From Trametes villosa (lineage: Eukaryota; Basidiomycota; Agaricomycetes; Polyporales; Polyporaceae), in the NCBI GenBank assembly GCA_002964805.2, contig PUDQ02000001.1:6968001-7032000 (forward strand): a stretch of DNA of 64,000 bases. The letters run 5' to 3'. Within the stretch, counting starts at the first letter, position 1. Every line of letters begins with the position of its first letter. The notes beneath the pieces were generated by a model. It made no database searches. It saw only the letters and a list, made by a program, of their open reading frames with translations, and was not told the DNA's origin. Position numbers and translations under genes: made by a program. Below, piece after piece: positions 24,075 to 37,741 of the stretch.

Positions 24075-24078
24075 GCGG
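24075..24078. repeat. Target site duplication, left
   Basis: GCGG immediately before the TGATGC start of the 5' LTR, repeated directly after the 3' LTR end at 37738. 4-bp duplications are usual for Ty3/gypsy integrases. Confidence 0.6.
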
Positions 24079-24837
24079 TGATGCGCACGGTGCCACTCTG
24101 ACCCCAGGATCCTTCGCCAGGCCTCTACGCTCGGCGCACCGCGCGTTATGCACGCGCTCGCGGAAGAGCGCGCGTCCCTCTCCTCAGGTATCCGCAAGGG
24201 CGCGGTGGTTCCGCTCGCGACGGGCCCGGAGGCTTCGCGCACGTTGAGCGGGACTATCGGCCGAGCGGGCGGAGCGCGAGTCATCGCCAAGGGCGGGCGC
24301 AGCACGCGGGCCGCCTTATCGGGCGCGGCCGCCAATCGTAGGGCGGGCATTCGCGAGCGCGCGTGGACTCGCGCGCGGCGGGGCCGCCGTCCTCGCGGTT
24401 CGCGGCGCGGGTCTCCGAAGGGGTTCTGGATCCTTTCGCTGGTCTAGGCTGGGTAGCTACGATTCATCCATGTACCTACGCGCCCCGGGCGCCAGGGAAT
24501 TCAGATTCCTTTCCCCCTCACCCTCAGGAGCTCAATTGCGTCTGCGTCCCCCTCTGCGAATAGCGTCCTGCGTTGCGTTGCGTTGCGTTGCGAACTGCGC
24601 CCCTGCGTCTTCCCTAGCGTTCCCGCTTGCGCTCTCACTGCGAACCCTCCCGCCAGCGCTCCGCGTACGCGTTGCGATCCGCGCGAGACTTGCCAGCGCA
24701 TCGCGCTTTCGCCGCAAGGGCACCCCGACTCGAACCTCGCTCCTCCTCCGCTTCGCGCTTAGCTTCCCTACAGGCCTCGTCCTCCGAAGGCCCTCGGCCT
24801 GTCTCTGGTTGCCCCTAGGGGATAGTCGAGTGCATCA
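24079..24837 (+). repeat. 5' long terminal repeat
   Basis: Begins TGATGCGCACGG and ends GAGTGCATCA, so the ends form the short inverted repeat TGATGC/GCATCA starting with the canonical TG and ending CA. Differs from the 3' copy by about 20 positions counted by eye, including two or three 1-nt indels. Contains a GCGTT microsatellite around 24573-24593. Confidence 0.92.
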
Positions 24838-24839
24838 TT

Positions 24840-24852
24840 CTGGTGACCACCG
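24840..24852 (+). other. Primer binding site (putative)
   Basis: TGGTGACCACCGC starts 2 nt after the LTR and begins with TGG, complementary to the universal CCA end of tRNA; a tRNA ending GCGGTGGTCACCA would pair along it. Which tRNA this is cannot be told here. Confidence 0.5.
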
Positions 24853-25404
24853 CAGGGGGGTGGAGTTAGAACTTCACAGTCGGCTTCCTCCTTCGACGGC
24901 AACAGCGCCGTCCCCGTCGCGATTACGCGAAAGACTCGCTCCCGCTCGCGACAGGCTTCCCTCTCAGAGGAGCTCCTCTTCACTAGCTTCAAGCAGGCCG
25001 TCTCGCGACTCCGCAACAGGCTCGACCTCGAGCAGACACAGGCGATCCTCGAACCCATTCACGCTATCCTCGAAAAGGGAGCAGCAGTACTCGCTCGCGA
25101 CCCCGACGCGACCGCGTGGATCCGCGACACTGCGCTTCAAGTCATCGAATCCGCTGTCGAACCCCGTCAGACCGAAGAGCTCGACGACCTCTCCATCCTC
25201 GACGACTCGGCAATCTTCCAGACTCCAGCAGCGAGTCCGAACCTGCGCCGTACCGAGCTCTCCCCCATCGACCAGTCCGCCTCCGACGAACAGGCCTCGC
25301 AGCCGCGTTCTGAAACACCGTCGTCGCCAAGCGTACCGTCTATCAGCCCTCCATCCCCGACTCTGTCGTCTCGCTCGCGCTCGCCCCCGACACCTAGCGC
25401 CAAC
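24847..25404 (+). other. Open N-terminal extension of gag lacking an AUG
   Basis: The gag frame is open for 186 codons upstream of its first ATG, back to a TGA at 24844. Its translation looks like real protein: a helical acidic region (QAVSRLRNRLDLEQTQAILE; DALDDLS-like EELDDLSILDD) then a Ser/Pro-rich stretch running into the ATG at 25405. There is no ATG in it. Possible explanations are a near-cognate start such as ACG at 24925, splicing from an ATG in the LTR, or loss of the start in this copy. Confidence 0.5.
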
Positions 25405-27885
25405 ATGCCGGGAGAACACGACGACCAATCGCGCTCGCGGCGCGCTATGCCGCCCGCGCGCCATTCCACGGCGCCGATCTTCGACCCGCAGGAGGTACGC
25501 ACGCTGCGTCGCTTCTTCCAGGACCTCGAGGCGCTCTTCGAGATCTGCGAGGTGGAGGACGACCAAGCCAAGAAGCGGTGGGTCATCCGCTACCTCCCGA
25601 TCGCCGTGAGCGACCTCTGCGAAGGGCTACCCGCCTACACCGAGGCCGCGAAGTCGTACGAGGACCTGAAGAAGGCGATCACCGAGTTGTACCCCGGGGC
25701 AGGGGAGACGCGCAAGTATTCCGTCGCCGACGTCGAGGCGTTAGTTGCGGCGCGCGGCGCGCGCCCCATCACCAGCATCACGGAGCTATCGAGCTACCAC
25801 CGCGACTTCCTCGCCATGACCACCTACCTCATCAGCAAGGACCGCATCTCGAAGTCCGAGCAGTCGCGCCTATTCGTTCGCGGCATCCGCTCGCCTCTAT
25901 GGGAGCAAGTCTCGCAGCGTCTTCAGCTTAAGGAGCCCGACCACTACCCCGACGACCCGTACCCGCTCGAGACGGTCTACAACGCGGCGGCCTTCGTCCT
26001 TCATGGCACCTTGGCCTCTAGTCCGCCCTCGGTTCCCGCAGCAAGCGAAGCGCGAGGCGCGCCGAGCAGCGGGGGCGCGACCGTGAAGGTCGAGGACTTG
26101 GGCTCGATCCTCAGGCTCCTCGCGCAGTCGGTTGGTGAAGGGAGCGCGAACGCGATCGCGAACGTCGCGAACCGCGTCGGAGGTCCGCCCGGAGGCGGTC
26201 CGCAGCGATTCCAGCCCCCACCGCACGCTCGAGGGGACGCTCGCTATCCGCCTGGCAATGGGCCCGGGGGGAACTTCTGCCACTACTGCGGCAACGCGAA
26301 CTGCCAGATGAGGACTTGCCCGTTCGTGGAGGAAGACGTGCGTGGTGGTCGCGTCATGCGCAACGAGCAGGGCTACGTGGTACTCCCGAACGGTAACTTC
26401 ATCCCGAGGACGCTCTCCAACCCTCACTTCGAAGGCGTGACGATCCGCGACCGCGTCTACGAGTGGCACCGTCGCAACCCGAACGCGCTGGCGCATAACG
26501 CGAACGCGCCCGCGGCCGCCCAGCTCAGCTTCGAGATCGCGAACGACGACTACGACTACCCCCCTCTGCAGAGCTTTCAGTTCAGTGCCGTGGACCGCAT
26601 CGCGCAGCTGGAACACGAGATCTACGCCCTCAAGCAGGCTAGTGCGCGACAGGGTGGGAGTCGGTTTGACGGAGTAGAGATCCCGCCTTACCGGGGTCCG
26701 CGCTCGCGCCCGACGTCGCCGTTCCGACCTGAGCGAGGGCGCTCTAGTGACGCGCGCTCCGAGCAGCCGCGCACCAGAGACCCCTCCCAGCAAAGGATCG
26801 GCCCCCCGTCGAACCCAGCCAGCTCAGGGCAGCGCCAGCGCGATCCTCCGCCTCACCAGCCAGCTCCCCCACGGGACTCGGGCGCGCGCGAGGCGCGTGA
26901 CACGACTATCAGCACTTCCGCGCGCGAGCAGGAAGCGCCACGCGCAGCGGCCCGGCCACCTACCCCCTTCAAGGAACCTGCCGCGCCCCGCGAAGCAGCG
27001 CCGAGCGGTAGTCGCGAGCACCCGTTCGCGAAGTCGCGCGACGCGACGTACGCTCCTCCGCAGAACCGTAACTTCGGAGCGCCGCCTGCGAAGCCGAAGG
27101 AATCCGAGCGTGAGACAGCCTACCGCACGCACGTCCCGGTCTATAACGCCAAGTTCGCGGAGGAGATCTTTGAGCGTTCGATGAAGACCCCGGTGATCAC
27201 GCTTTCGCCAGAGGAGCTCCTGTCGATCTCACCTGAGTTGCGCGCGAAGTACCGCGAGGCGGTCTCGCCGAAGCGCGTCCCGACGGGCGCGCGGTCGGTG
27301 AACTTTGCCAACGTCGACTCCTTCCCGGACCATCTCGAGAACGACGTGTCATGTCACGGCGACCCACTGGAGCCCGGAAGCTTGGTCATCCCGGACCCGT
27401 ACGAGGTCTACCTACGCAGCGACGCGGCGAAGGACGAGACGCCGCCCCTCAGCGTCGCGAAGGAGTCTCACGCACTGCGCTCTATCTCGGGGCTGGTCGA
27501 CAACAAGGAGTGGATCGAGGGGATCATCGACCCAGGTTGCATGATCATCGCGATGTCTGAAGGAGTCTGTCACGCGCTGGGACTCGGGTACGATCCCACC
27601 ATCCAGCTTCGCATGCAGTCCGCGAACGGCGCGTGCGATTACTCCTTGGGGCTCGTTCGGAACGTCCCGTTCCGCGTCGCGGACATCGTCCTCTACCTGC
27701 AGGTCCACATCATCCGCAACCCTCCCTACGACATGTTGCTGGGTCGGCCATTCGACGTACTCACGCGCAGCGTCGTCAAGAACCTCGACGACGAAGGCCA
27801 GACCATCACCCTCCACTGTCCGAACACGGGGCAAGTCGTCACCATCCCGACGCAGCCGCGCGGGAAGGCTCGATTTCGTGCTTAA
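25405..27885 (+). CDS. Gag-protease polyprotein of the LTR element
   Basis: 826 aa from the first in-frame ATG. The capsid-like region (about 25-200) has the helical pattern of Ty3/gypsy Gag (RRFFQDLEALFEIC, KKRWVIRYLP, SYHRDFLAMTTYLI). A zinc knuckle at 26278-26319 reads CHYCGNANCQMRTC, that is C-x2-C-x4-C-x4-C, with Cys where His is usual. It is followed by a conserved-looking block ending VLPNGNFIPRTL, a long Pro/Arg/Ser-rich linker, and a C-terminal retropepsin (about 690-810). The protease active site is IIDPGC at 27523-27540, a DPGC variant of D(T/S)G(A/S), with the flap-side motif MLLGRPFDVL. Overlaps the pol frame at its stop codon. Confidence 0.85.
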   Translation: MPGEHDDQSRSRRAMPPARHSTAPIFDPQEVRTLRRFFQDLEALFEICEVEDDQAKKRWVIRYLPIAVSDLCEGLPAYTEAAKSYEDLKKAITELYPGAGETRKYSVADVEALVAARGARPITSITELSSYHRDFLAMTTYLISKDRISKSEQSRLFVRGIRSPLWEQVSQRLQLKEPDHYPDDPYPLETVYNAAAFVLHGTLASSPPSVPAASEARGAPSSGGATVKVEDLGSILRLLAQSVGEGSANAIANVANRVGGPPGGGPQRFQPPPHARGDARYPPGNGPGGNFCHYCGNANCQMRTCPFVEEDVRGGRVMRNEQGYVVLPNGNFIPRTLSNPHFEGVTIRDRVYEWHRRNPNALAHNANAPAAAQLSFEIANDDYDYPPLQSFQFSAVDRIAQLEHEIYALKQASARQGGSRFDGVEIPPYRGPRSRPTSPFRPERGRSSDARSEQPRTRDPSQQRIGPPSNPASSGQRQRDPPPHQPAPPRDSGAREARDTTISTSAREQEAPRAAARPPTPFKEPAAPREAAPSGSREHPFAKSRDATYAPPQNRNFGAPPAKPKESERETAYRTHVPVYNAKFAEEIFERSMKTPVITLSPEELLSISPELRAKYREAVSPKRVPTGARSVNFANVDSFPDHLENDVSCHGDPLEPGSLVIPDPYEVYLRSDAAKDETPPLSVAKESHALRSISGLVDNKEWIEGIIDPGCMIIAMSEGVCHALGLGYDPTIQLRMQSANGACDYSLGLVRNVPFRVADIVLYLQVHIIRNPPYDMLLGRPFDVLTRSVVKNLDDEGQTITLHCPNTGQVVTIPTQPRGKARFRA

Positions 27886-27888
27886 CGC
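27878..27888 (+). other. Candidate +1 frameshift site between gag and pol
   Basis: The gag frame ends GCT TAA C and the pol frame is +1 relative to it and open across this point and at least 150 nt before it. A stop-codon-stimulated +1 shift at GCU-UAA-C would resemble antizyme sites (GCG UGA C in budding yeast). Pol has no good in-frame AUG near its start. Confidence 0.4.
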
Positions 27889-30800
27889 GCCCGCGTCGCC
27901 ATCTTCGTACCTGTTCGCGGACGCGGAAAGCGCGGAGGTGGCCGTGATCGTGGAAGCGGACGGCGACGTCCCTTTCATCAGTGCCTATACCCCAGTTACC
28001 CCTTCTGCCGCGGACTCGTCTATCTCTCTCTCTCTCTCTGCGCTCTATCTCTCTGCTTGTGACCGTCTCCCAGAAATCGCGGCGTCCTACGCCCTAGAAC
28101 AAAACCCACAAAGCGAACCGGTTTCACGTCTCTCTGGCTCGATCTCTCTCTCAGCTTCGGACTCTTTCCCTGTCTCGGGAGTGGATCGCGTAGCGACGCA
28201 CTGCTCCCCGAACCCGGCGCAACCCGAGGTTCAAGATACCCGAGCTACCCCCTCTCAGTTCGCGCTTAGGACGGAGGCAGGCGTGCGGGTCGTATACGCG
28301 CGCGAAGACCCTCGCGACACGGCGGCGGCCTTCATCCAGTCGAAGAAGAAGTACAAGCCCGTCGCGCAAAAGGTCCGCGCCGTCCTCGGCACCGTGCCAA
28401 CCCAGTTCCGCATAGAGCGCGACATTCGCGGCGACCCGCTCGCGAACATGCCCCGGCTCGACCCGCGCCCGCCGGAGTTCGTACCCACCGGCCGTTACAC
28501 GCTGGAGCGGAAGGAGGCGTTCGACAAGCTCCACGGCGGCGACTTCCTCTGGCCAGAGGAGAAGCGCCTTCTCCATCACTTCATGACGCTACACCACGAC
28601 GCTTTCGCTTGGAGCGACGCGGAGCGCGGGTGCTTCAAACCGGAGTACTTCCCGCCGGTGGAGTTCCCCGTCCTCCCACACACCCCGTGGGTCGAGCGCA
28701 ATATCCCCATCCCTCCAGGGCTCTACAAGCAGGTCTGCGAGATGCTGAAGAAGAAGATCGCGGCCGGCGTGTACGAGCCCTCCAATTCCTCCTATCGGTC
28801 GCGCTGGTTCTGCGTTCTCAAGAAGGACGGGAAGTCTCTGCGCATCGTCCACAGTCTCGAGCCGCTCAATAAGGTCACGATCCAGCACTCAGGGGTCCCG
28901 CCTACGCCCGACTACCTCGCAGAGCAGTTCGGAGGGCGCGCGTGCGGCGCGATCCTCGACCTCTATGTCGGCTACGACGAGCGGATGATCGCGGAGACCT
29001 CGCGCGACCTCACCACCTTCCAGACCCCCTTTGGAGCCTTGCGTCACTGTACGCTGCCGATGGGATGGTCCAATTCCGTCCCCATCTTCCACGAGGACGT
29101 CACCTACATTTTGCGACCGGAGATCCCCGAGTTCACGGTACCCTACATCGATGACGTACCTGGCAAGGGCCCCGAATCCGACTATCGCGGCGAGGACGGC
29201 ACGTACGAGACGATCCCCGCGAACCCAGGCATTCGGCGTTTCGTCTGGGAGCACTTCGGCAACATGAACCGTATCGTGCAGCGCATGAAGTACGCGGGAG
29301 GCACCTTCTCGGGCACGAAGTCGATCCTCTGCGCGCGCGAGATCATGGTCGTCGGACACCGGTGCACACCAGAGGGACGTCTACCGGACGAGTCGCGCGT
29401 GGCAGCGATCAAGAACTGGGGTCCGTGCAAGGATCTCTCCGAAGTACGCGCCTTCCTCGGAACGGTGGGCGTAGTGCGCATCTTCATCCGCAACTTCGCG
29501 AAGCGCGCGAACGCGCTAGTCCAGCTCACGCGCAAGGACGCACCCTTCGAGTTCGGACCCGCGCAGCTCGCCGCGATGAACGATCTGCGCCAAGCGCTTC
29601 TCGAGTCTCCGGCCCTCCGCGCGATCAACTACGACTCTCCCGCGCCGGTCATCCTCGCAGTCGACACGTCCTACATCGCCGTCGGCTACCACCTCTGCCA
29701 GTGCGATGAAGAGGACCCGCGCAAGCGGTTCTACAGTCGCTTCGGGTCGATCACGCTCAACGAACGGGAGGCGCGCTTCTCCCAACCAAAACTGGAGCTC
29801 TATGGCCTCTTCCGCGCCCTGCAAGCGACGAAGCTCTACCTAGTCGGCATCCGCAGACTAGTAGTGGAAGTGGACGCGCGCTACATCCGCGGAATGCTAC
29901 AGAATCCGGACCTCGCCCCCAGCGCGAGTATAAACCGCTGGATCCTCGGAATCCTAACCTTCCACTTCCATCTCGTTCACGTTCCCGGAACCTCCCACGG
30001 ACCGGACGGTCTCTCGCGGCGACCGCGACAACCAGGAGACCCTGAAGTTGACGAAGAAGAGGGCGAGGAGTTCGAGGACTGGATCGACAAGATCCACGGC
30101 TTCCTGCACCAGCTACTTCCGCGACCGCGCAGCCGCCCTCCTCGCGAACGCGACCCCATACACCTCTTCGCTCTCGCCGATGCGACCGAGGACGGTCACG
30201 ATTTCAGCGAGGGGGAGGAGGCGCAGGACACGGAGGCACAGAACGCGAGCGAAGCAGGAGGGCCGAGTACGAGGGCGAAGCGGGCCAAAGCACGAGCGAA
30301 GGTCAGGTTCGCGTCAGAAGACGACACGCGCGCGATCCCAGAACCGGAGGGCGAGGCAGAGATGCCCTACGCGGAGCACACTCGGCGAGCGGACGAACGG
30401 CTAGAACGCGTCGCGAGTTGGTTGCGCACGCTCCAGCGACCCGAGGGACTCAAGGACGCAGAATACCGCACCTTCATCAAGTACGCGCAAGGCTTCTTCG
30501 TGGATGGCGAGCGACTGTGGAAGAAGGACTCGCAAGGCGCACACAAGCTCGTAGTCTGGCGCGCAAGACGACTGGCGACTCTCCGAGCGGCACACGACGA
30601 CATAGGACACCGCGGCAGCTACGCAACGTTGCATCTCGTCGCCGAGCGCTTTTGGTGGCCCTCGCTCCGCGACGACGCGACGTGGTATGTCAAGACCTGC
30701 CATATCTGTCAGACGCGCCAGCACCGCAAGGTCCTGATCCCTCCAGACGTCGCTCGCCCGGGCGGACTCGGCGTACGATGGTACATCGACATCATGAAGA

Positions 30801-31804
30801 TGCCTAGCTCAGGCGGATACACGATCATCGTTGTCGCGCGTTGCTCTGTGTCAGCGTGGCCGGAGTGGCGGATGCTGCGCTCGGAGAACGAGAAGACAGT
30901 CAGCGACTTCCTCTTCCAGGAGCTGCTCTGCCGCTGGGGCGCGATAGTCGAGATCATCACGGACAACGGCTCCGCGTTCATCAGCGCAGCGCGCAAGCTC
31001 GAGGAGCGCTACAACCTCAACCGCATCAGCATCAGCCCGTACAACTCGAAGGCGAACGGCATCGTAGAGCGCTCTCACTTCGATACGCGCCAGGTCCTCT
31101 ACAAGGCGGCGGGCGGAGACCAGCACAAGTGGTCGCAGTACGCGCACTACGCGTTCTGGGCGGAGCGCGTCACGATCCGGCGGCGCATGGGCTGCTCCCC
31201 GTACTTCGCGGTGACCGGTTGCCACCCGGTCCTCCCCTTGGACGTCGCGGAGGCTACGTACCTACTACCGCCACCGGTCGGGCTGTTATCCACCGAAGAG
31301 TTGCTCGCGCGTCGTGCGACTGAGCTACAAAAGCGTCAGGAACAGCTCGCGACGCTGAACTCGAGAGTCTATCGCGCGCGGGTGGAGGCGGCGCGCAAGT
31401 TCGAGCGCGACCACGCGGCCACGATCCGAGACTACGACTTCAAGGCTGGCGCACTGGTGTTGATGCGACACACGCAGATCGAGAAGTCGCTCAACCGCAA
31501 GATGCGACCACGGTACACGGGTCCGCTGGTAGTGATCTCGCGCAACCGCGGCGGGGCGTATGCCCTGTGCGAACTCGATGGGACCGTGCTACATCGCGCG
31601 GTGGGCGCGTTCCGCCTGATCCCCTACGCCGCGCGACGCACCATTCCGCTCCCCGAGAACTTCGCGGACATCTCGCAGAAGAGGCTAGCGGAGCTGACGG
31701 AGGGCGACGACGACGGCCTTGATGACCCGGAGCCCGAGCTACTCGATGGCGCGCGCGATGTAGACGGCGACGTCGATAGCAGCGGCTCGGAGGACGACGA
31801 GTAA
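27878..31804 (+). CDS. Pol polyprotein (reverse transcriptase-RNase H-integrase)
   Basis: 1308 codons open from the overlap with gag. Reverse transcriptase: SRWFCVLKKDGKSLRIVHSL, then the catalytic YIDD at 29144-29155. RNase H: LAVDTSYIAVGYHLCQ, LELYGLFRAL and VVEVDARYIRGML supply the D-E-D residues. Integrase: an HHCC zinc region near 30592-30715 (HDDIGHRGSY; CHICQTRQ), then D,D,E catalytic residues in WYIDIM, IITDNGSAF and GIVERSH. A GPY/F-like module follows (RYTGPLVVISRNRGGAYALCEL). Integrase after RNase H fixes the element as Ty3/gypsy. The N-terminal 190 residues, before the RT, have no known domain and include a Ser/Leu tract encoded by a TCTCTC microsatellite. The region near 30182-30217 duplicates sequence near the 3' LTR. 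Confidence 0.93.
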   Translation: MLNAPASPSSYLFADAESAEVAVIVEADGDVPFISAYTPVTPSAADSSISLSLSALYLSACDRLPEIAASYALEQNPQSEPVSRLSGSISLSASDSFPVSGVDRVATHCSPNPAQPEVQDTRATPSQFALRTEAGVRVVYAREDPRDTAAAFIQSKKKYKPVAQKVRAVLGTVPTQFRIERDIRGDPLANMPRLDPRPPEFVPTGRYTLERKEAFDKLHGGDFLWPEEKRLLHHFMTLHHDAFAWSDAERGCFKPEYFPPVEFPVLPHTPWVERNIPIPPGLYKQVCEMLKKKIAAGVYEPSNSSYRSRWFCVLKKDGKSLRIVHSLEPLNKVTIQHSGVPPTPDYLAEQFGGRACGAILDLYVGYDERMIAETSRDLTTFQTPFGALRHCTLPMGWSNSVPIFHEDVTYILRPEIPEFTVPYIDDVPGKGPESDYRGEDGTYETIPANPGIRRFVWEHFGNMNRIVQRMKYAGGTFSGTKSILCAREIMVVGHRCTPEGRLPDESRVAAIKNWGPCKDLSEVRAFLGTVGVVRIFIRNFAKRANALVQLTRKDAPFEFGPAQLAAMNDLRQALLESPALRAINYDSPAPVILAVDTSYIAVGYHLCQCDEEDPRKRFYSRFGSITLNEREARFSQPKLELYGLFRALQATKLYLVGIRRLVVEVDARYIRGMLQNPDLAPSASINRWILGILTFHFHLVHVPGTSHGPDGLSRRPRQPGDPEVDEEEGEEFEDWIDKIHGFLHQLLPRPRSRPPRERDPIHLFALADATEDGHDFSEGEEAQDTEAQNASEAGGPSTRAKRAKARAKVRFASEDDTRAIPEPEGEAEMPYAEHTRRADERLERVASWLRTLQRPEGLKDAEYRTFIKYAQGFFVDGERLWKKDSQGAHKLVVWRARRLATLRAAHDDIGHRGSYATLHLVAERFWWPSLRDDATWYVKTCHICQTRQHRKVLIPPDVARPGGLGVRWYIDIMKMPSSGGYTIIVVARCSVSAWPEWRMLRSENEKTVSDFLFQELLCRWGAIVEIITDNGSAFISAARKLEERYNLNRISISPYNSKANGIVERSHFDTRQVLYKAAGGDQHKWSQYAHYAFWAERVTIRRRMGCSPYFAVTGCHPVLPLDVAEATYLLPPPVGLLSTEELLARRATELQKRQEQLATLNSRVYRARVEAARKFERDHAATIRDYDFKAGALVLMRHTQIEKSLNRKMRPRYTGPLVVISRNRGGAYALCELDGTVLHRAVGAFRLIPYAARRTIPLPENFADISQKRLAELTEGDDDGLDDPEPELLDGARDVDGDVDSSGSEDDE
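30182..30217 (+). repeat. Internal copy of the 3' polypurine-tract region
   Basis: 36 bp (GCGACCGAGGACGGTC, AC, GATTTCAGCGAGGGGGAG) matching 36943-36978 at 34 of 36 positions. Here it is coding (EDGHDFSEGE) in the RNase H-integrase linker. It could serve as a second plus-strand priming site. Confidence 0.6.
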
Positions 31805-32272
31805 TCGGACCCAGTGCTACGTGTACGATACCTCTACGACGATGGACCATTCTTACCAATACTAGTCTCTCTTTCTCTGACCCGGCTTTCCCGTTTAAGA
31901 CCATACCCCACTTCCTCTTCAAACGCGCGCGCGCGAGCCCTTTGTGTGCGCGTACGTTCCGCTAAGTCCGCGCCTGGTCTTTCGGGCTCGCGAAGTACGC
32001 GCGCGTGCGAACGGCGCGCGGTTGCGCGCGTTTTCTGGGCCTCACACATTCGGTTGCCAAGAACTATACAGTTTTCATTGGTTTTCTCTATGTACCTTTA
32101 CGAACCAGCTACTATGGACGAGGGACACGGACTGGGGGGTGATACATGCTAACGCGAAGGTTACAGGAGTGAGGCGAGCGACGCGGACGGGAGCGGATAC
32201 GTACAACAAGACTTCGCGTCCGAGGCGAGCCAGCCCGCCCGAGCGCGCACCAAGAAGCGACCCTCTTGCCCT
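31805..32272. other. Spacer between convergent pol and accessory gene A
   Basis: 468 bp between the pol stop (plus) and the stop of accessory gene A (minus). GC-alternating tracts at 31926-31940; no ORF of note. The 3' ends of both transcription units must lie here. Confidence 0.4.
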
Positions 32273-34651
32273 CTACTCAGCGCGCGACGCGCCGGAACCC
32301 GACGGCTCCCCTGCGTTGGACGACGCGGCCTCAGCGGCGAGAAGCGGGAGGGGGCCGGCCATGTCGTCAGTCCACGTCGGGCTGTACACCATTCCGAGCC
32401 TCTCCATCGTCACCACGCGCATGGCCTGCATCGCGGACGCGTAGCCAACGATGTGGGCGTCGGCGGCGAGCGAGGCGTCGCGGTGCGCGGCGCGGACCAG
32501 CGAGGACCCAGCAGGGAGAGGCTTGAGCGGCTCGGATGGCTTGCCATCGCGCTGAGCGCGCAAGTGGGCGCGTGCGGCTTGGCCAATCTGCGCAAGGAGG
32601 TTGTCGACGATGGCGTCGATCGTGGCGTCGCTGAGGGCGCAGGACTGGAGCGCGGAGGTGAGGAGGGAGACGTCGGGAGCGGCGCGAGAACCACGACCGG
32701 GCGCGCTGGCGGCACCGGAAGCAACAGACGCGGCGCGCGAGGGGTCCCGCGAGATCTACAAGGCGGTTTAGCAAGATGGCAGCGAAGCGAAACGCGACTA
32801 CTCGCCTCGACATGAGACAAGACAGCGCGCGCGTGGCGGGGAACAGCACTGGCGCGCTGCGAAGAGCTGTCCGCGAGCGGGTTGGGCGAGGGCGGCGCCG
32901 GGGAATCGTCCTCCTCCTCGTCGATCTCGGTGACGTGACTTACCCGGTCGTCGTCCGAGCGCGCGGCGGCTTCAGTATCGTCGTCGGCAGTCTCGTCGTC
33001 CTCCTCCTCGACCTCGTCCTGCCACTCGTCGTCGTCGTCGTCCGCGGGCGGGGGTGCAGGCCCGCGCTTGCGGGCGCTCGAGCCGCTGGCCTTGCGCTCG
33101 CGCACCGACGGAGCGTCCGCGTCCACGGTGGCGGCCACCTCCTGGATGAACGCGTCGCGCTCTTCTACCGCCCACTTCGGGACGGGCAGCCGCAAGCGGT
33201 TGAGCAGGATCAACAGGATCGTGCCGTCCGGGCGGATGGCTGTAGATGCGGTCAGCAAGGCGGGCGAAAGGGGCGAGAGCGGACGCGATACGCACCCCGA
33301 GTGAAGCCCTTATCGTCGTACCACGCCGCATAGCGGGTGGAAGTGGGGAGGCCGGACTTCGCGGCGAGCACGTCGTTGATCAGGCACGCCTGCTTCTGGT
33401 ACACGCAGCGCATGCACTTCTTGAACCCGCGGCGGAGGTCGCACTTGCCCTTGCCCACACACAAAGCGCACTGCGGGAGGATGGTCAGCGCGCAGACGCG
33501 AGTCGAGCAGAAGGGCGTACCGCGGTGCCCTTGGGCGGGAAGTAGACGTTGACGGGAGGGAAACGCGGCGGGGTTAGCTTGTTCTTCCTCAACGCCATCT
33601 TCTGCTCGGCGTTGAGGGAGTCGATGCGAACCCCACACTCCACCTCCTCCAGGACCCACTCTTCCTCGTCGGCCGGCTTGGCCTTTCCTTTGCCCTTAGC
33701 GCGCGAGCGCGTCCGGCGAGCCTTCGGCGTGGCGGGCTCCTTCTTCGCGGCGGTGGATCGACGTGTGCGCCGCGGAGTGGGGGCGGCGGGCTCCTCGCCC
33801 GCGTCTTCGTCGGCCTGCTCGCTGGAGAGCTCGATCACGTCGGGTTCGGCGATCGCAGTGGCGCGCTTTTTCGGCGCTGGCTTCCTCTCTGCGGCCGGCT
33901 TCACGGGTTCGGGCGAAGAGTTGCCGCGCTTGCGCTTCGTACCCTCGGACGGTCCAGCGGTGGTGGAGGCGGCTGGCGTGGCCTTCGGAGCGCGCGGAGC
34001 CGACGCGCTACTGGCGGACTGAGCCGCCTGTCGCAAGTCGAGGGTCGCAATCGGCGGGATGAGGTCCGCGTCACGCGGGCGGTAGCCCGGCGTAGTACCA
34101 GGGCGCCGAGGGCGAGGGATGCTCGATGCAGCGGGCGCGGGCGGCGCAGCGGGAGCGGGAGGCGGAGCGAGGGCGGGAGCGGGTGCTGGGGGCGCAATGG
34201 AAGCGGGCGTGCCGGACACGTCGGCCACGCTTGCCTGAGGCGGACCGTCAGGGTAGCGGCGGAGGTACGCGGCGCGGTAGAGCGGGTCTGTCCAGACCGT
34301 CCCCAAGTTGACGGAGCCCGTCGCGCCCTCCGCGAAGCGCCAGGTGCGCGCCACCAGGTCGCCCAGGAGCGGGAGGACGAGGCGCTCCGAAGAACCATTA
34401 TTCACGATGGCGCGCTGAAGGGTCACGCGGGTCAGCGAAGCGTGTGGAGCGGCCGAGACAGGACTCACCGCGATGCTGACCGCCTCCGACGCGTAGAAGC
34501 GGAAGGCGGCGGCGGGCGCGCTGGGGAGCGGACACTCGTTGAGGATATGCTGGTCCAAGCGCTGGACCAGCTGCTCGTTAGCGGCAGCGGCGTCATTCCG
34601 AGCAGCGGGGGTGACCAGGGACTGGGAGGCGGTGGGATTGCTAGGATCCAT
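32273..34651 (-). CDS. Retrotransposon accessory protein A: Zn2Cys6-like cluster, basic and acidic blocks (antisense)
   Basis: Exons 34651-33521, 33470-33296, 33239-32944 and 32755-32273. Introns of 50, 56 and 188 nt have good donors (GTACGC, GTGCGT, GTAAGT) and branch sites (GCTGACC; GCTGACC; GCTAAACC). Product about 694 aa starting MDPSNPTASQ. After a Pro/Ala-rich region come nuclear-type basic stretches (KRKRGN; RRTRRSTAAKK; RTRSRAKGKGK). The exon 2 protein has six cysteines spaced C-x2-C-x5-C-x8-C-x2-C-x6-C (CALCVGKGKC to YQKQAC), close to a fungal Zn2Cys6 cluster. Acidic Asp/Glu tracts and a helical C-terminal domain (MQAMRVVTMERLGMVYSPTW) follow. I infer a nuclear, possibly DNA-binding protein. 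The third intron is the least certain because its frame stays open and acidic. Confidence 0.7.
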
Positions 34652-35112
34652 GGCGGAGGGCGCAGGGAGGAGTGGAACGAGCAGAGGCAAGCAAGAGAGG
34701 AGAAGAGGGGCGACGACGAGCACCGAAGGACGCTGCCCCTTATGCGCGCGCAGGCCGCGCGCGCTGCACGACCCTTACGGGGCCGCGCGCGGACCCTAGC
34801 CTCAAGGCGCGCGGCCTGGAACAAGAAGCCTCACGGACGGCGATCTATGACGCGCGGCGAAGTAGAAGTTCGGCGCTCGCGGCACAGGCGGCCCGACGCG
34901 ACCCTGCGTACTCCCGTGGCGGTGTACACGCGGTCACGAGAGCGTGCGAAGCAGACAAGGACGAGCACCTGCCCGCGGGACGCGTCCGCGGGCTCGCGGG
35001 CTTCTCCCGCGGCGTGCGGGATTCAGTCTCGCAGGGATCGCGTCGATCTGACGTGCTACCGGGCGCAAATACAGCACGTACTACCAGCGGTTCTACCTTC
35101 TCCCTACTCCCT
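34652..35112. other. Promoter region of accessory gene A
   Basis: 461 bp between accessory B stop and accessory A start. On the minus strand a GCATAAGG lies about 90 bp before the ATG of A. The long plus-strand ORFs through here are antisense shadows with no domain. Confidence 0.4.
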
Positions 35113-35934
35113 TCAGTCCTCGGGCGCTTCGGGCCTCTCGCGAGCAAGCAATACCGCCGGGATCGTCTCCGGGTCCGCGCCCATCGGGAGCGGGGTGTAA
35201 CCGACGAAGAGATCCGCGAGGTCGGCTGGCAGCGCTTCCGCGGAGGGAGTTCCGCGCGCGGCACGCGGACTACGGGGAGGCAAGGGCGGAGACTCCAGCG
35301 GGGGAATCGACTCGGACGAGGTTATCGGGCGACCGGAAAAGTCGAGCGGGACGATGCCGGCGTGGTGGATGGCTTCGCGCGTGCGAACGTTATCGCGCTG
35401 GAGGGCGGCGAGCTGAGCGAAGATGCGCTGGATGGAGGGGAGCAGGAAGGTAGCGTCGACACCGCTCCGGATGACGACTCGACGCGCTGCCGCGGCGCGC
35501 TCCAGGAGTGCGAGGAGTTCTCGCTGTTCGAAAAGAGCGGCCTCGCGCTCGCGGTCCAAGGCAACCCAGGCGAAGCGGCTCCGAAAGTACGCGAGGGCGG
35601 ATGGAGGCGCGGCGGGACCGCGTAGGATGCCCTCAACGCGGTCGGTGGCGTCGCGGAGGTGGTACGAAGTCAGCTCGAGCGGCATCGCGAGTTCCTGAGG
35701 CAAGGTTAGCACCCATGAGTGGCGGCGGCGACGGCGAGGGCTACTCCACCGGGTACGAACGGAGGCCTCTAAGAACCGGTCTAGGGCGGCTTCCCATTCG
35801 ACAGGGTCGACGTCGGCGCGGCGCGTCAGGGCTTCGAGCGCACGCGAGGTTCGCTCGAGCTGGGCGATGGAGAACGGGATGGCAGCAGCTTGGAGCGCGC
35901 GGATGTCGTCGCGCAGGAGCGGGAGAGCACTCAT
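35113..35934 (-). CDS. Retrotransposon accessory protein B: helical protein (antisense)
   Basis: Start chosen at MSALPLLRDDIRALQAAA because it aligns with the start of accessory C; an upstream ATG at 36033 would add 33 residues of low-complexity sequence. Unspliced product 273 aa. A 66-nt in-frame segment (GTTCGT, GTGCTAACC, TTGCCTCAG; about 35692-35757) encodes an Arg run and may be an intron, giving 251 aa. Mostly alpha-helical by composition: QLERTSRALEALTRR; WEAALDRFLE; a long E/R/A/L helix from ALDREREAALFEQREL; then a proline-rich C-terminus. No known domain and no membrane segment. Related in layout to accessory C next door. Confidence 0.6.
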   Translation of the reverse strand: MSALPLLRDDIRALQAAAIPFSIAQLERTSRALEALTRRADVDPVEWEAALDRFLEASVRTRWSSPRRRRRHSWVLTLPQELAMPLELTSYHLRDATDRVEGILRGPAAPPSALAYFRSRFAWVALDREREAALFEQRELLALLERAAAARRVVIRSGVDATFLLPSIQRIFAQLAALQRDNVRTREAIHHAGIVPLDFSGRPITSSESIPPLESPPLPPRSPRAARGTPSAEALPADLADLFVGYTPLPMGADPETIPAVLLARERPEAPED

Positions 35935-36172
35935 GGTTGGCGAGTCGACCGGCGCGAGTCGAGCACCTCGCGATCTTAAGGGTCTCGCTAGCGGTGACGT
36001 CGGAGGCGTCGCGCTTTGTTCACCCGCTGACAAGATCTATTGGGACATCGATACATCGCTCCTCGTGGCCCGAACCCTCTACCCAGCTTCGCGTCTCCTT
36101 CACCCGGTGCGGCGGCCCTCCTCCCAGGCCCTCCTCGTATTCACCGCGGTTATGGCGGGCCTGCGGTCGTCT

Positions 36173-36857
36173 TCAAGCGAAGCCGCCGTTCTCGTAGGCC
36201 TCCAGATCTGGTAGCCCGTACCAGATATCAGAACCGCGACGCGGGACGAGGCTAGCGAGTGCGGGCGCACCGGCGGCGGCGCGCGCGGCAGCGTCGTTAG
36301 TCGCCTCTGCGAGGGCCCCCAGTTCGCGCCGAATAGTTCGCAGGTGTTGGCGCACGGAAGCTTCGACGTCGGTAGCGCGTGCGAGCGCGAGTGCGCCTTC
36401 GGCGCCCGCACGGGTGAAGGCGTGGCGGGCGGCCAGCACGCGAGCGAGTTGGACCTCTAGGCGCATCTGCGCGGCCTCCGCGACACGGGTTTCGATCTCC
36501 CTACGGACGGACGCCAGCCGCTCCAGGAAGTACGGTCGCAGGCCAGCATCCGTCGTTTGGGCTCCCACCGCGCGCTCGATCCGCGCGAGGAGGGGCGTGA
36601 GGCGAGCGTCACCGTCCGTCACGATCAAGTACGACTCCTGCACCTTGTCAGGCTGAGTTCACGAGCAGCGCGCGACGACTCACGGTCGCGAAGATGGTCT
36701 CCTTCAGCGCGGCGTACCAGTCCTCCTGGCTGAACGACATCGCATCCTCCATCTCCTCAAGGTTCGCGGTCTGCCGCTCGAGCTGCTGCAAGGCAAGCGG
36801 TTGGGCTTCCTCGCGGAGCGTGGCGACGGCGTCTTCGGTAGCGCGGAGTCCGTTCAT
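36173..36857 (-). CDS. Retrotransposon accessory protein C: helical protein, relative of B (antisense)
   Basis: Exon 1 is 36857-36684 and exon 2 is 36643-36173; the 40-nt intron (GTGAGT, GCCTGAC, AAG) is short but phase-consistent. Product about 214 aa starting MNGLRATEDAVATLREEAQ. Shares with accessory B the order: helix ending QQLERQTANLEEM, a W-containing motif (EDWYAALK in C, VE-WEAALD in B), a PYF/AYF motif before a long E/R-rich helix, and a second helix with R-LG/QLAAL. A TATTTAAG at about 36905-36912 lies some 50 bp before the ATG, suggesting its own promoter. Function unknown; no enzymatic motif or membrane segment. Confidence 0.6.
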
Positions 36858-36904
36858 GGCGTACAAGAGCTGAAGATCACGGCGCGCCTCCAGTACGCGG
36901 AATC

Positions 36905-36912
36905 CTTAAATA
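36905..36912 (-). promoter_or_regulatory. TATA-like box of accessory gene C
   Basis: TATTTAAG on the minus strand about 50 bp before the accessory C start, just inside the 3' LTR and polypurine tract. Confidence 0.35.
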
Positions 36913-36942
36913 CGCCGCGGCGCGGACGCGATCGCATCGATA

Positions 36943-36978
36943 GCGACCGAGGACGGTCGGGATTTCAGCGAGGGGGAG
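36943..36978 (+). repeat. 3' copy of the 36-bp duplicated block with polypurine tract
   Basis: Matches 30182-30217 at 34 of 36 positions. Its right end, GCGAGGGGGAGA (36968-36979), abuts the 3' LTR and is the likely polypurine tract for plus-strand priming. Confidence 0.65.
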
Positions 36979-36979
36979 A

Positions 36980-37737
36980 TGATGCGCACGGTGCCACTCT
37001 GACCCCAGGATCCTTCTCCAGGCCTCTACGCTCGGCGCACCGCGCGTTATGCACGCGCTCGCGGAAGGGCGCGCGTCCCTCCCCTCAGGTATCCCAAGGG
37101 CGCGGTGGTTCCGCTCGCGACGGGCCCGGAGGCTTCGCGCGCGTTGAGCGGGACTATCGGCCGAGCGGGCGGAGCGCGAGTCATCGCCAAGGGCGGGCGC
37201 AGCACGCGGGCAGCCTTATCGGGTGCGGCCGCCAATCGTTGGGCGGGCATTCGCGAGCGCGCGTGGACTCGCGCGCGGCGGGGCCGCTGTCCTCGCGGTT
37301 CGCGGCGCGGGCCTCCGAAGGGGTTCTGGATCCTTTCGCTGGTCTAGGCTTGGTAGCTACGATTCATCCATGTACCTACGCGCCCCGGGCGCCAGAGCAT
37401 CCAGATTCCTTTCCCCCTCACCCTCAGGAGCTCAATTGCGTCTGCGTCCCCTCTGCGAATAGCGTCCTGCGTTGCGTTGCGTTGCGTTGCGAACTGCGCC
37501 CCTGCGTCTTCCCTAGCGTTCCCGCTTGCGCTCTCACTGCGAAGCCTACCCGCCAGCGCTCCGCGTACGCGTTGCGAGCCGCGCGAGACTTGCCAGCGCA
37601 TCGCGCTTTCGCCGCAAGGGCACCCCGACTCGAACCTCGCTCCTCCTCCGCTTCGCGCTTAGCTTCCCTACAGGCCTCGTCCTCCGAAGGCCCTCGGCCT
37701 GTCTCTGGTTGCCCCTAGGGGATAGTTGAGTGCATCA
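36980..37737 (+). repeat. 3' long terminal repeat
   Basis: 758 bp, begins TGATGCGCACGG and ends GAGTGCATCA, about 97 percent identical to the 5' LTR by eye. Confidence 0.92.
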
Positions 37738-37741
37738 GCGG
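37738..37741. repeat. Target site duplication, right
   Basis: GCGG directly after the 3' LTR, matching 24075-24078. Confidence 0.6.

Follow-up and report, generated by a model that had tools for sequence, protein, structure and literature searches.

A stretch of 64,000 nucleotides of the Trametes villosa genome (referred to throughout as the window; C1:6968001-7032000 of the 46.7-Mb, 140-contig assembly that was searched) carries a Ty3/gypsy-type long terminal repeat (LTR) retrotransposon at positions 24079-37737 (13.66 kb), in which the pol stop and the 3' LTR are separated by 5.2 kb holding three minus-strand genes, here called A, B and C. Comparison of copies confirms that these are genuine spliced antisense protein-coding genes under purifying selection; they recur across copies of the element, and a homologue of gene C, which encodes a protein with Zn2Cys6-like cysteines, is kept by a non-autonomous relative. 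A first-pass annotation made from the letters of the window had proposed about 5 kb with three antisense multi-exon genes between pol and the 3' LTR, and the models bear this out, the interval it gave (32273-36857) running exactly from the stop of gene C to the start of gene A. By analogy with the antisense protein HBZ of human T-cell leukaemia virus type 1 (HTLV-1), we hold with moderate confidence that the three genes form an antisense nuclear regulatory module, which would tune transcription of the element itself or decide what becomes of its complementary DNA (cDNA).

Structure, coding potential and distribution of the antisense genes

Gene A (212 amino acids; 36173-36857, minus strand) has two exons at 36857-36684 and 36637-36173, gene B (251 amino acids; 35113-35934, minus strand) two at 35934-35761 and 35694-35113, and gene C (722 amino acids; 32273-34651, minus strand) five at 34651-34469, 34414-33521, 33470-33296, 33239-32806 and 32755-32273. 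Splice sites were chosen by hand from open frames and from the comparison of three versions of the cassette, namely that of the window and two diverged ones in the same genome, on contigs C16 (~674-680 kb) and C37 (~64-71 kb); the same five-exon model of gene C holds in both. All six intron positions are common to the three versions and the introns are 46-70 nt long. Among the 18 introns so compared (six positions in three versions) every one ends in AG and 17 begin with GT, the sole GC start being that of intron 4 of gene C in the window. A, B and C are all intact in C16, as is gene C in C37. The TTAAG/ATAAG-like boxes noted earlier upstream of the genes are also found again as TATA-like words on the minus strand: TATTTAAGG at 36904-36912 upstream of gene A (also in C16, C37, C13 and C24), a TTAAG-like word at 35972-35981 upstream of gene B and an ATAAGG word at 34738-34747 upstream of gene C, the last two being seen by eye in C16 and C37 as well.

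Between the window and C16, gap-free stretches of exon 2 of gene A (462 nt) and of gene B (420 nt) differ by 2/0/23 and 6/3/45 mismatches at the first, second and third codon positions, respectively, and the gene frame is free of stops in both. The opposite-strand frame that shares their third positions has a similar skew (0/2/23 for A and 3/6/44 for B), with one stop in each stretch and a ratio of nonsynonymous to synonymous divergence (dN/dS, or omega) higher than that of the gene frame (0.048 vs 0.030 for A and 0.094 vs 0.050 for B); the remaining frames have omega above 1 or several stops. Over the genes, omega by the Nei-Gojobori method is 0.046, 0.025 and 0.045 for A (dS 0.19, 0.18 and 0.10), 0.171, 0.179 and 0.288 for B (dS 0.66, 0.66 and 0.06) and 0.52, 0.59 and 0.33 for C (dS 0.96, 0.83 and 0.34) in the pairs window-C16, window-C37 and C16-C37, respectively. 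For pol (codons 121-1419) the dS is 0.060 with C16, 0.089 with C37, 0.041 with C24 and 0.081 with C88, and omega is 0.04-0.09. Gene A is therefore as constrained as pol, and B and C are less so. An absence of purifying selection between copies was what the first-pass annotation had named as speaking against its proposal; the comparison of copies shows that such selection is present, the ratios being low in A and B and the constraint weaker in C.

A and B are paralogues: BLASTP aligns them with 31% identity across the first 59 residues (E 8e-5), a profile comparison, built on very few sequences, aligns 144 columns without a gap (probability 92%, E 7.6e-7), and the first exons of both are 174 nt long and end in phase 0. 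No homology was found between B and C (E 0.37). Outside the element copies neither A nor B has a good match in the same genome, the weakest being at E 0.04 and 0.26 for B, and Pfam has no match in A, B or the window version of the C protein. An envelope gene was rejected, as A, B and C are without a hydrophobic segment (highest 19-residue Kyte-Doolittle means of 0.73, 1.02 and 1.09, respectively); of the earlier statement that the proteins have neither a membrane helix nor a signal peptide, the first part therefore stands, and for the second no dedicated prediction was made.

Nine pol matches reach the last residue of pol, those of C1 (the window), C16, C88, C24, C37, C90, C110, C3 and C13, a lower bound as 33 of 273 candidates were scored. 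The end of gene C lies beside pol in 9/9 of these copies with an assembled pol 3' end (at least nine copies), and A and B are present in seven of the nine, C88 being mostly deleted in the block and C110 stopping at a contig edge. Gene C is interrupted by an insertion of ~2.6 kb in C24 (near the equivalent of window 33726-33733) and of ~10.8 kb in C3 (near the equivalent of 34131-34138), the matches flanking each overlapping by 8 nt, like a target duplication, and gene A of C90 contains an insertion of ~2.8 kb. More distant relatives in pol are C1:6.63M, with 67% and 49% identity over two stretches of pol, and a ~50% family made up of C1:3.77M, C5, C56, C65, C7 and C3:3.19M. None of these seven has a tblastn match to A, B or C at E <= 0.01 in the downstream range searched, which was 7.5 and 6.5 kb for the first two (C1:6.63M and C1:3.77M) and 1.5 kb for the other five; the cassette therefore marks one lineage. 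The first-pass annotation had taken the absence of the block from related elements as a sign against its proposal, and the outcome is divided: the nine close copies with a pol 3' end all keep at least the end of gene C, whereas no match to A, B or C is seen in the 67% and ~50% relatives. About 1.7 kb with internal repeats is common to C1:3.77M, C5, C56, C65 and C7 after pol.

Gene C, its variability and its relatives

The zinc-cluster exon of gene C (33296-33470, minus strand) encodes Cx2Cx5Cx8Cx2Cx6C and ends at a conserved W[YF]...R|G splice donor, so that a zinc-cluster protein, as proposed earlier, does belong to the set, though below the Pfam cut-off. In the eight loci whose zinc exons were compared, the Cx2C and Cx8Cx2Cx6C spacings are constant and the second gap ranges from 5 to 9, being six in C16, C37 and the non-autonomous family (Cx2Cx6Cx8Cx2Cx6C), five in the window and seven in C1:4.25M. 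Gene C shares the order of six cysteines with the Zn2Cys6 (PF00172) fungal transcription factors, whose spacing fits C16, C37 and the non-autonomous family, but differs from them in its Cx2Cx5C in the window and in the W[YF]...RG tail after the cluster. Runs of basic residues (for example KRKRR/KKKKK) and of acidic ones are also present in the protein. At a loose threshold Pfam gives a TPR model at 0.19 for one version of C and a sub-threshold Zn_clus for C37, and a search for relatives of known structure gave one chance match (E 0.99).

Gene C is hypervariable, while the dS of pol is 0.06-0.09. Amino-acid identity by exon is 45, 40, 27, 35 and 84% between the window and C16 and 96, 85, 65, 66 and 91% between C16 and C37; at the nucleotide level the block is 90-99% identical in gene A, ~50% in gene C and 80-92% towards pol. 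Synonymous divergence is highest in the zinc-cluster region and decays on both sides, in the comparison of the window with C16 and C37 as in that of C16 with C37, and in the latter pair the synonymous excess of exons 3 and 4 over exons 1 and 5 has a Fisher P of 5.6e-8 (sites treated as independent). Since pol and the LTRs are near-identical and gene C is diverged, the versions of C are far older than the divergence of pol among these elements. Mosaics of this sort usually arise from recombination between co-packaged RNAs. Compared with the type I copies C24 and C88, the window copy is without 192 nt of exon 5, in frame, and 24 nt at window 32659-32682 are common to the edges of the two matches, which suggests that the loss may have arisen between short direct repeats.

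Searches with the zinc exon of C37 and then with that of C1:4.25M (17 and 34 matches at E <= 10) reveal a wider family, found in the autonomous elements, at loci beside LTR-like repeats and at C1:4.25M, four places of C19 and, weakly, C49 (E 0.41). The end of the zinc exon is identical in all eight loci, falling after W[YF]...R with a GT that splits the next glycine codon; a ninth locus (C16:568k) does not match this pattern. Zinc-cluster genes that share this exon end are located at C19:42690, 55640, 65291 and 70555 (within 28 kb) and at C1:4255520, sites with no LTR or pol among the matches listed, and are, from their sequence and arrangement, candidates for a resident gene cluster or for domesticated copies. 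At the DNA level C1:4.25M and C19:55k each occur once, and the matches listed include no LTR, pol or rve in their vicinity.

A family of 7.6-kb LTR elements, represented by C53:23800-31500 (L062), carries a further homologue. Its LTRs are 87-88% identical to those of the window across 570 nt, and its sense open reading frame (ORF) of 1066 amino acids has a gag part with 66-78% amino-acid identity in the best-aligned 431 codons and an omega of 0.13-0.22; no protease, reverse transcriptase (RT) or integrase was matched by Pfam in this ORF, and BLASTN finds pol as short scraps only. On the antisense strand lie exon 1, an intron with CTGAC, exon 2, the zinc exon, an intron at the conserved place and exon 4, the second intron having alternative ends and the model, which runs to exon 4, a provisional 3' end. 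A and B were not found in L062 at E <= 1. The 3.06-kb stretch with its zinc gene is present in at least six nearly complete copies and in further partial ones. In eight loci (C53, C1:5.70M, C15, C67, C25, C56, C16:595k and C140) the zinc exon lies on the strand opposite to that of the closest LTR match, and the other zinc-exon loci have no nearby LTR match among the matches listed. Plant TR-GAG elements are likewise non-autonomous, with gag between LTRs and without pol, and the family described here is gag-only in the same way but also retains the antisense zinc-cluster gene. That gag and gene C have outlasted pol suggests that they are the parts which each copy must supply itself. Window 36880-37008, on the promoter side of gene A and over the LTR start, is 73% identical to L062 6759-6889 (131 nt), gene A itself not being found in L062.

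A possible regulatory role and its alternatives

If A, B and C form a regulatory module, they would be transcribed from their own promoters adjoining the 3' LTR, downstream of that LTR in the genes' own direction, and their introns would survive retrotransposition on the unspliced strand, because the genomic RNA holds their reverse complement and cannot splice them out. The product of gene C would be a nuclear factor with a Zn2Cys6-like cluster and basic and acidic stretches, and the gene may descend from, or be shared with, a family of zinc-cluster genes that the genome itself harbours; A and B, as putative helical paralogues, may be its partners. The proteins would most likely act in the nucleus and there control how strongly the element is transcribed or how its cDNA is handled. 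Transcription, nuclear location, DNA binding and regulation are inferred, and the regulatory, nuclear-import, targeting and silencing roles suggested in the first-pass annotation are as yet unsupported.

Several results weigh against such a role. The zinc exons of types I and II are 27% identical, yet C16 and C37 each have a 3' LTR with 95% identity to that of the window; an LTR-specific binding of C would need different LTRs in the two types, and the data do not support a correspondence between the type of LTR and the type of gene C. Alternatively, C could act on its own promoter, a part of the divergent block, or on chromosomal DNA. The dN/dS of gene C against type I (0.5-0.6) indicates weak constraint and is near saturation. 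PF00172 scores 11.3 bits with the zinc exon of C37, where the cut-off is 21 (E 0.38), and has no match in that of the window; because the Zn_clus match is weak and confined to C37, we call the domain Zn2Cys6-like. No homologue of C, B or A is present among the 7993, 7996 and 7999 candidates scored, respectively, from a protein database with an undefined fungal share. Single-sequence structure models are poor both for the zinc exon of the window (mean predicted local distance difference test, pLDDT, 55; predicted template modelling score, pTM, 0.32) and for exon 2 of gene A (mean pLDDT 67, pTM 0.36). In C37, moreover, gene B starts with ATA rather than ATG and the frame of gene A is disturbed near its end; therefore not every copy needs all the genes.

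A more tentative proposal, to which we give a rather low probability, is that gene C and its promoter constitute an immunity-like compatibility locus, each version of which would restrain or license only matching elements, like the immunity groups of phage repressors. These versions, all very old (those of type I, C16, C37 and the non-autonomous family), would then be held apart by selection while gag-pol and the LTRs were homogenised around them by template switching, and the non-autonomous family would retain its own version of C to pass the same control. It is also possible, though we doubt it, that C is a targeting or pre-integration factor which accompanies Gag and the cDNA and anchors them at particular DNA sites in place of a chromodomain, with A and B as structural helpers. 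Pol has no chromodomain match at E <= 1, the non-autonomous family retains exactly gag plus gene C, and a variable DNA-contact region would fit shifting target sites; a trans-acting factor, on the other hand, need not be encoded by a non-autonomous copy.

That the three are passengers, host genes captured in antisense and kept for a time without a role in the element, appears improbable. Such an origin would agree with the single-copy relatives of gene C outside elements, which have the same intron (C1:4.25M and C19:55k), and with the nested insertions that disrupt gene C (C24, C3) or gene A (C90). However, a dN/dS of 0.025-0.046 for A between element copies, as low as that of pol, is unexpected for passengers, as are the end of C kept in every one of the nine copies and its homologue retained in a family without pol; A and B, furthermore, are without a good match outside the element in this genome. 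It is more improbable still that the product is an antisense RNA, not a protein, which pairs with gag-pol RNA and feeds silencing by double-stranded RNA. Such transcripts are discussed for other elements in the available text of PMC7264820, but the third-position bias, the conserved splice sites and a dN/dS that in A and B is far under 1 speak for proteins; the two readings are compatible and both can be true. An artefact of gene prediction in high-GC DNA, or real genes among the sense-strand ORFs, is scarcely credible: a GC content of 66-71% over most of the block opens long frames on both strands and the opposite frame, sharing third positions, has the same skew, but the between-copy test, in which that frame has stops and a higher dN/dS, conserved splice signals occur on the minus strand only and the joined frames are stop-free in two diverged cassettes, rules out the artefact for the minus-strand genes.

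Known antisense genes and the host element

Antisense genes at this place in LTR elements are already known. The plant antisense ORFs (gene23 of Grande, RIRE2, ORF4/TRP28 of Retand and PvRetro13) resemble A, B and C in place, orientation and presence in most copies, as far as the available texts describe them (PMC7264820; PMC11963269); gene23 is described there as having a promoter of its own and a product located in the nucleus (PMC7264820), and TRP28 has been proposed to bind DNA (PMC7264820; PMC11963269). The cassette described here differs in its three genes, six introns, zinc cluster, paralogous pair and basidiomycete host, the word intron being absent from the accessible text of PMC11963269, and Pfam gives no sequence family common to the plant ORFs and A, B or C. 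In a fungal gypsy element, Boty of Botrytis cinerea, brtn is cited as an antisense additional gene (title of Zhao 2011 as listed in PMC8365987; PMC7264820); one gene is named there and three are present here. HBZ of HTLV-1, like APH-2 of HTLV-2, is antisense, spliced and starts near or in the 3' LTR, and HBZ is a nuclear LTR regulator that inhibits LTR activation, according to the part of PMC3185765 available; the likeness is functional only, as HBZ has a basic leucine zipper (bZIP) and not a zinc cluster, starts inside the LTR and belongs to an unrelated host and element. Pfam finds no bZIP domain in A, B or the window version of C. The p22 protein of Ty1 is likewise coded by the element it restrains (PMC4599808, in the portion available), but is a Gag fragment made from the sense transcript.

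The novelty claimed in the first-pass annotation is thus narrower than stated, a fungal antisense gene at this place having been known in Boty. In the open-licence literature searched, no account of several spliced antisense genes in one basidiomycete element was found. To our knowledge three features are without a described precedent: a set of three spliced genes that includes a zinc-cluster protein, hypervariation among the alleles of such a gene, and its retention by a non-autonomous family. What is new here is the paralogy of A and B, the hypervariability of C, its wider family and its retention by non-autonomous elements. Reports of antisense accessory genes in LTR elements go back years but assign them no function (PMC7264820, as far as its text is available). 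The present cassette offers handles on function in an intron-rich set of three genes, measurable selection, a zinc-cluster protein, several natural alleles within a single genome and a parasitic element that has kept gene C but not pol, and its introns show how spliced genes may survive in an element that replicates through RNA, namely on the strand that is not spliced. Should C prove to be a regulator whose versions have matched specificities, an analogue of immunity groups would exist among retrotransposons; the cassette hints at an unexplored route by which elements may control themselves or each other.

The host element is bounded by a direct repeat formed by the 5' LTR (24079-24837) and the 3' LTR (36980-37737), both on the plus strand with ends TGATGC/GCATCA, which are 97-99% alike across four ungapped blocks; 4-bp GCGG flanks the element on both sides (24075-24078 and 37738-37741). 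A plus-strand ORF for gag plus aspartic protease (24847-27885, stop to stop; PF13650, E 1.2e-05, above cut-off) precedes that of pol (27545-31804, plus strand), in which RNase H and integrase are identified (PF17921, PF17919 and PF17917, above cut-off). The rve match in pol (E 4.1e-06) has 27.4 bits, below the whole-protein cut-off of 32.6, and reached 32.9 bits in another scan; RT, for which Pfam has no match at E <= 1, is placed by position. With the protease before RT-RNase H, integrase last, two TG...CA LTRs and a target duplication, the element is of the Ty3/gypsy type.

Among the other copies, the two LTRs of C16 match the 3' LTR of the window at 96 and 95%, and that of C90 matches it at 89%. 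Of the two LTRs beside the C37 element, the one at 79750-80506 is 89% like that of the window and the cassette-side one, at 64852-65613, 95% like it; gag similarity in C37 starts only at residue 658. A diverged gag in C37 was not borne out, an insertion or junction being as likely; from its unequal LTRs and late gag start, the C37 element is a candidate for a mosaic or nested arrangement. In the window, the gag and pol ORFs overlap at 27545-27885, pol lying in frame +1 with respect to gag, which suggests frameshifting or another linking mechanism. The purine-rich tract GCGAGGGGGAGA, so labelled by position, lies immediately before the 3' LTR (36968-36979, plus strand).

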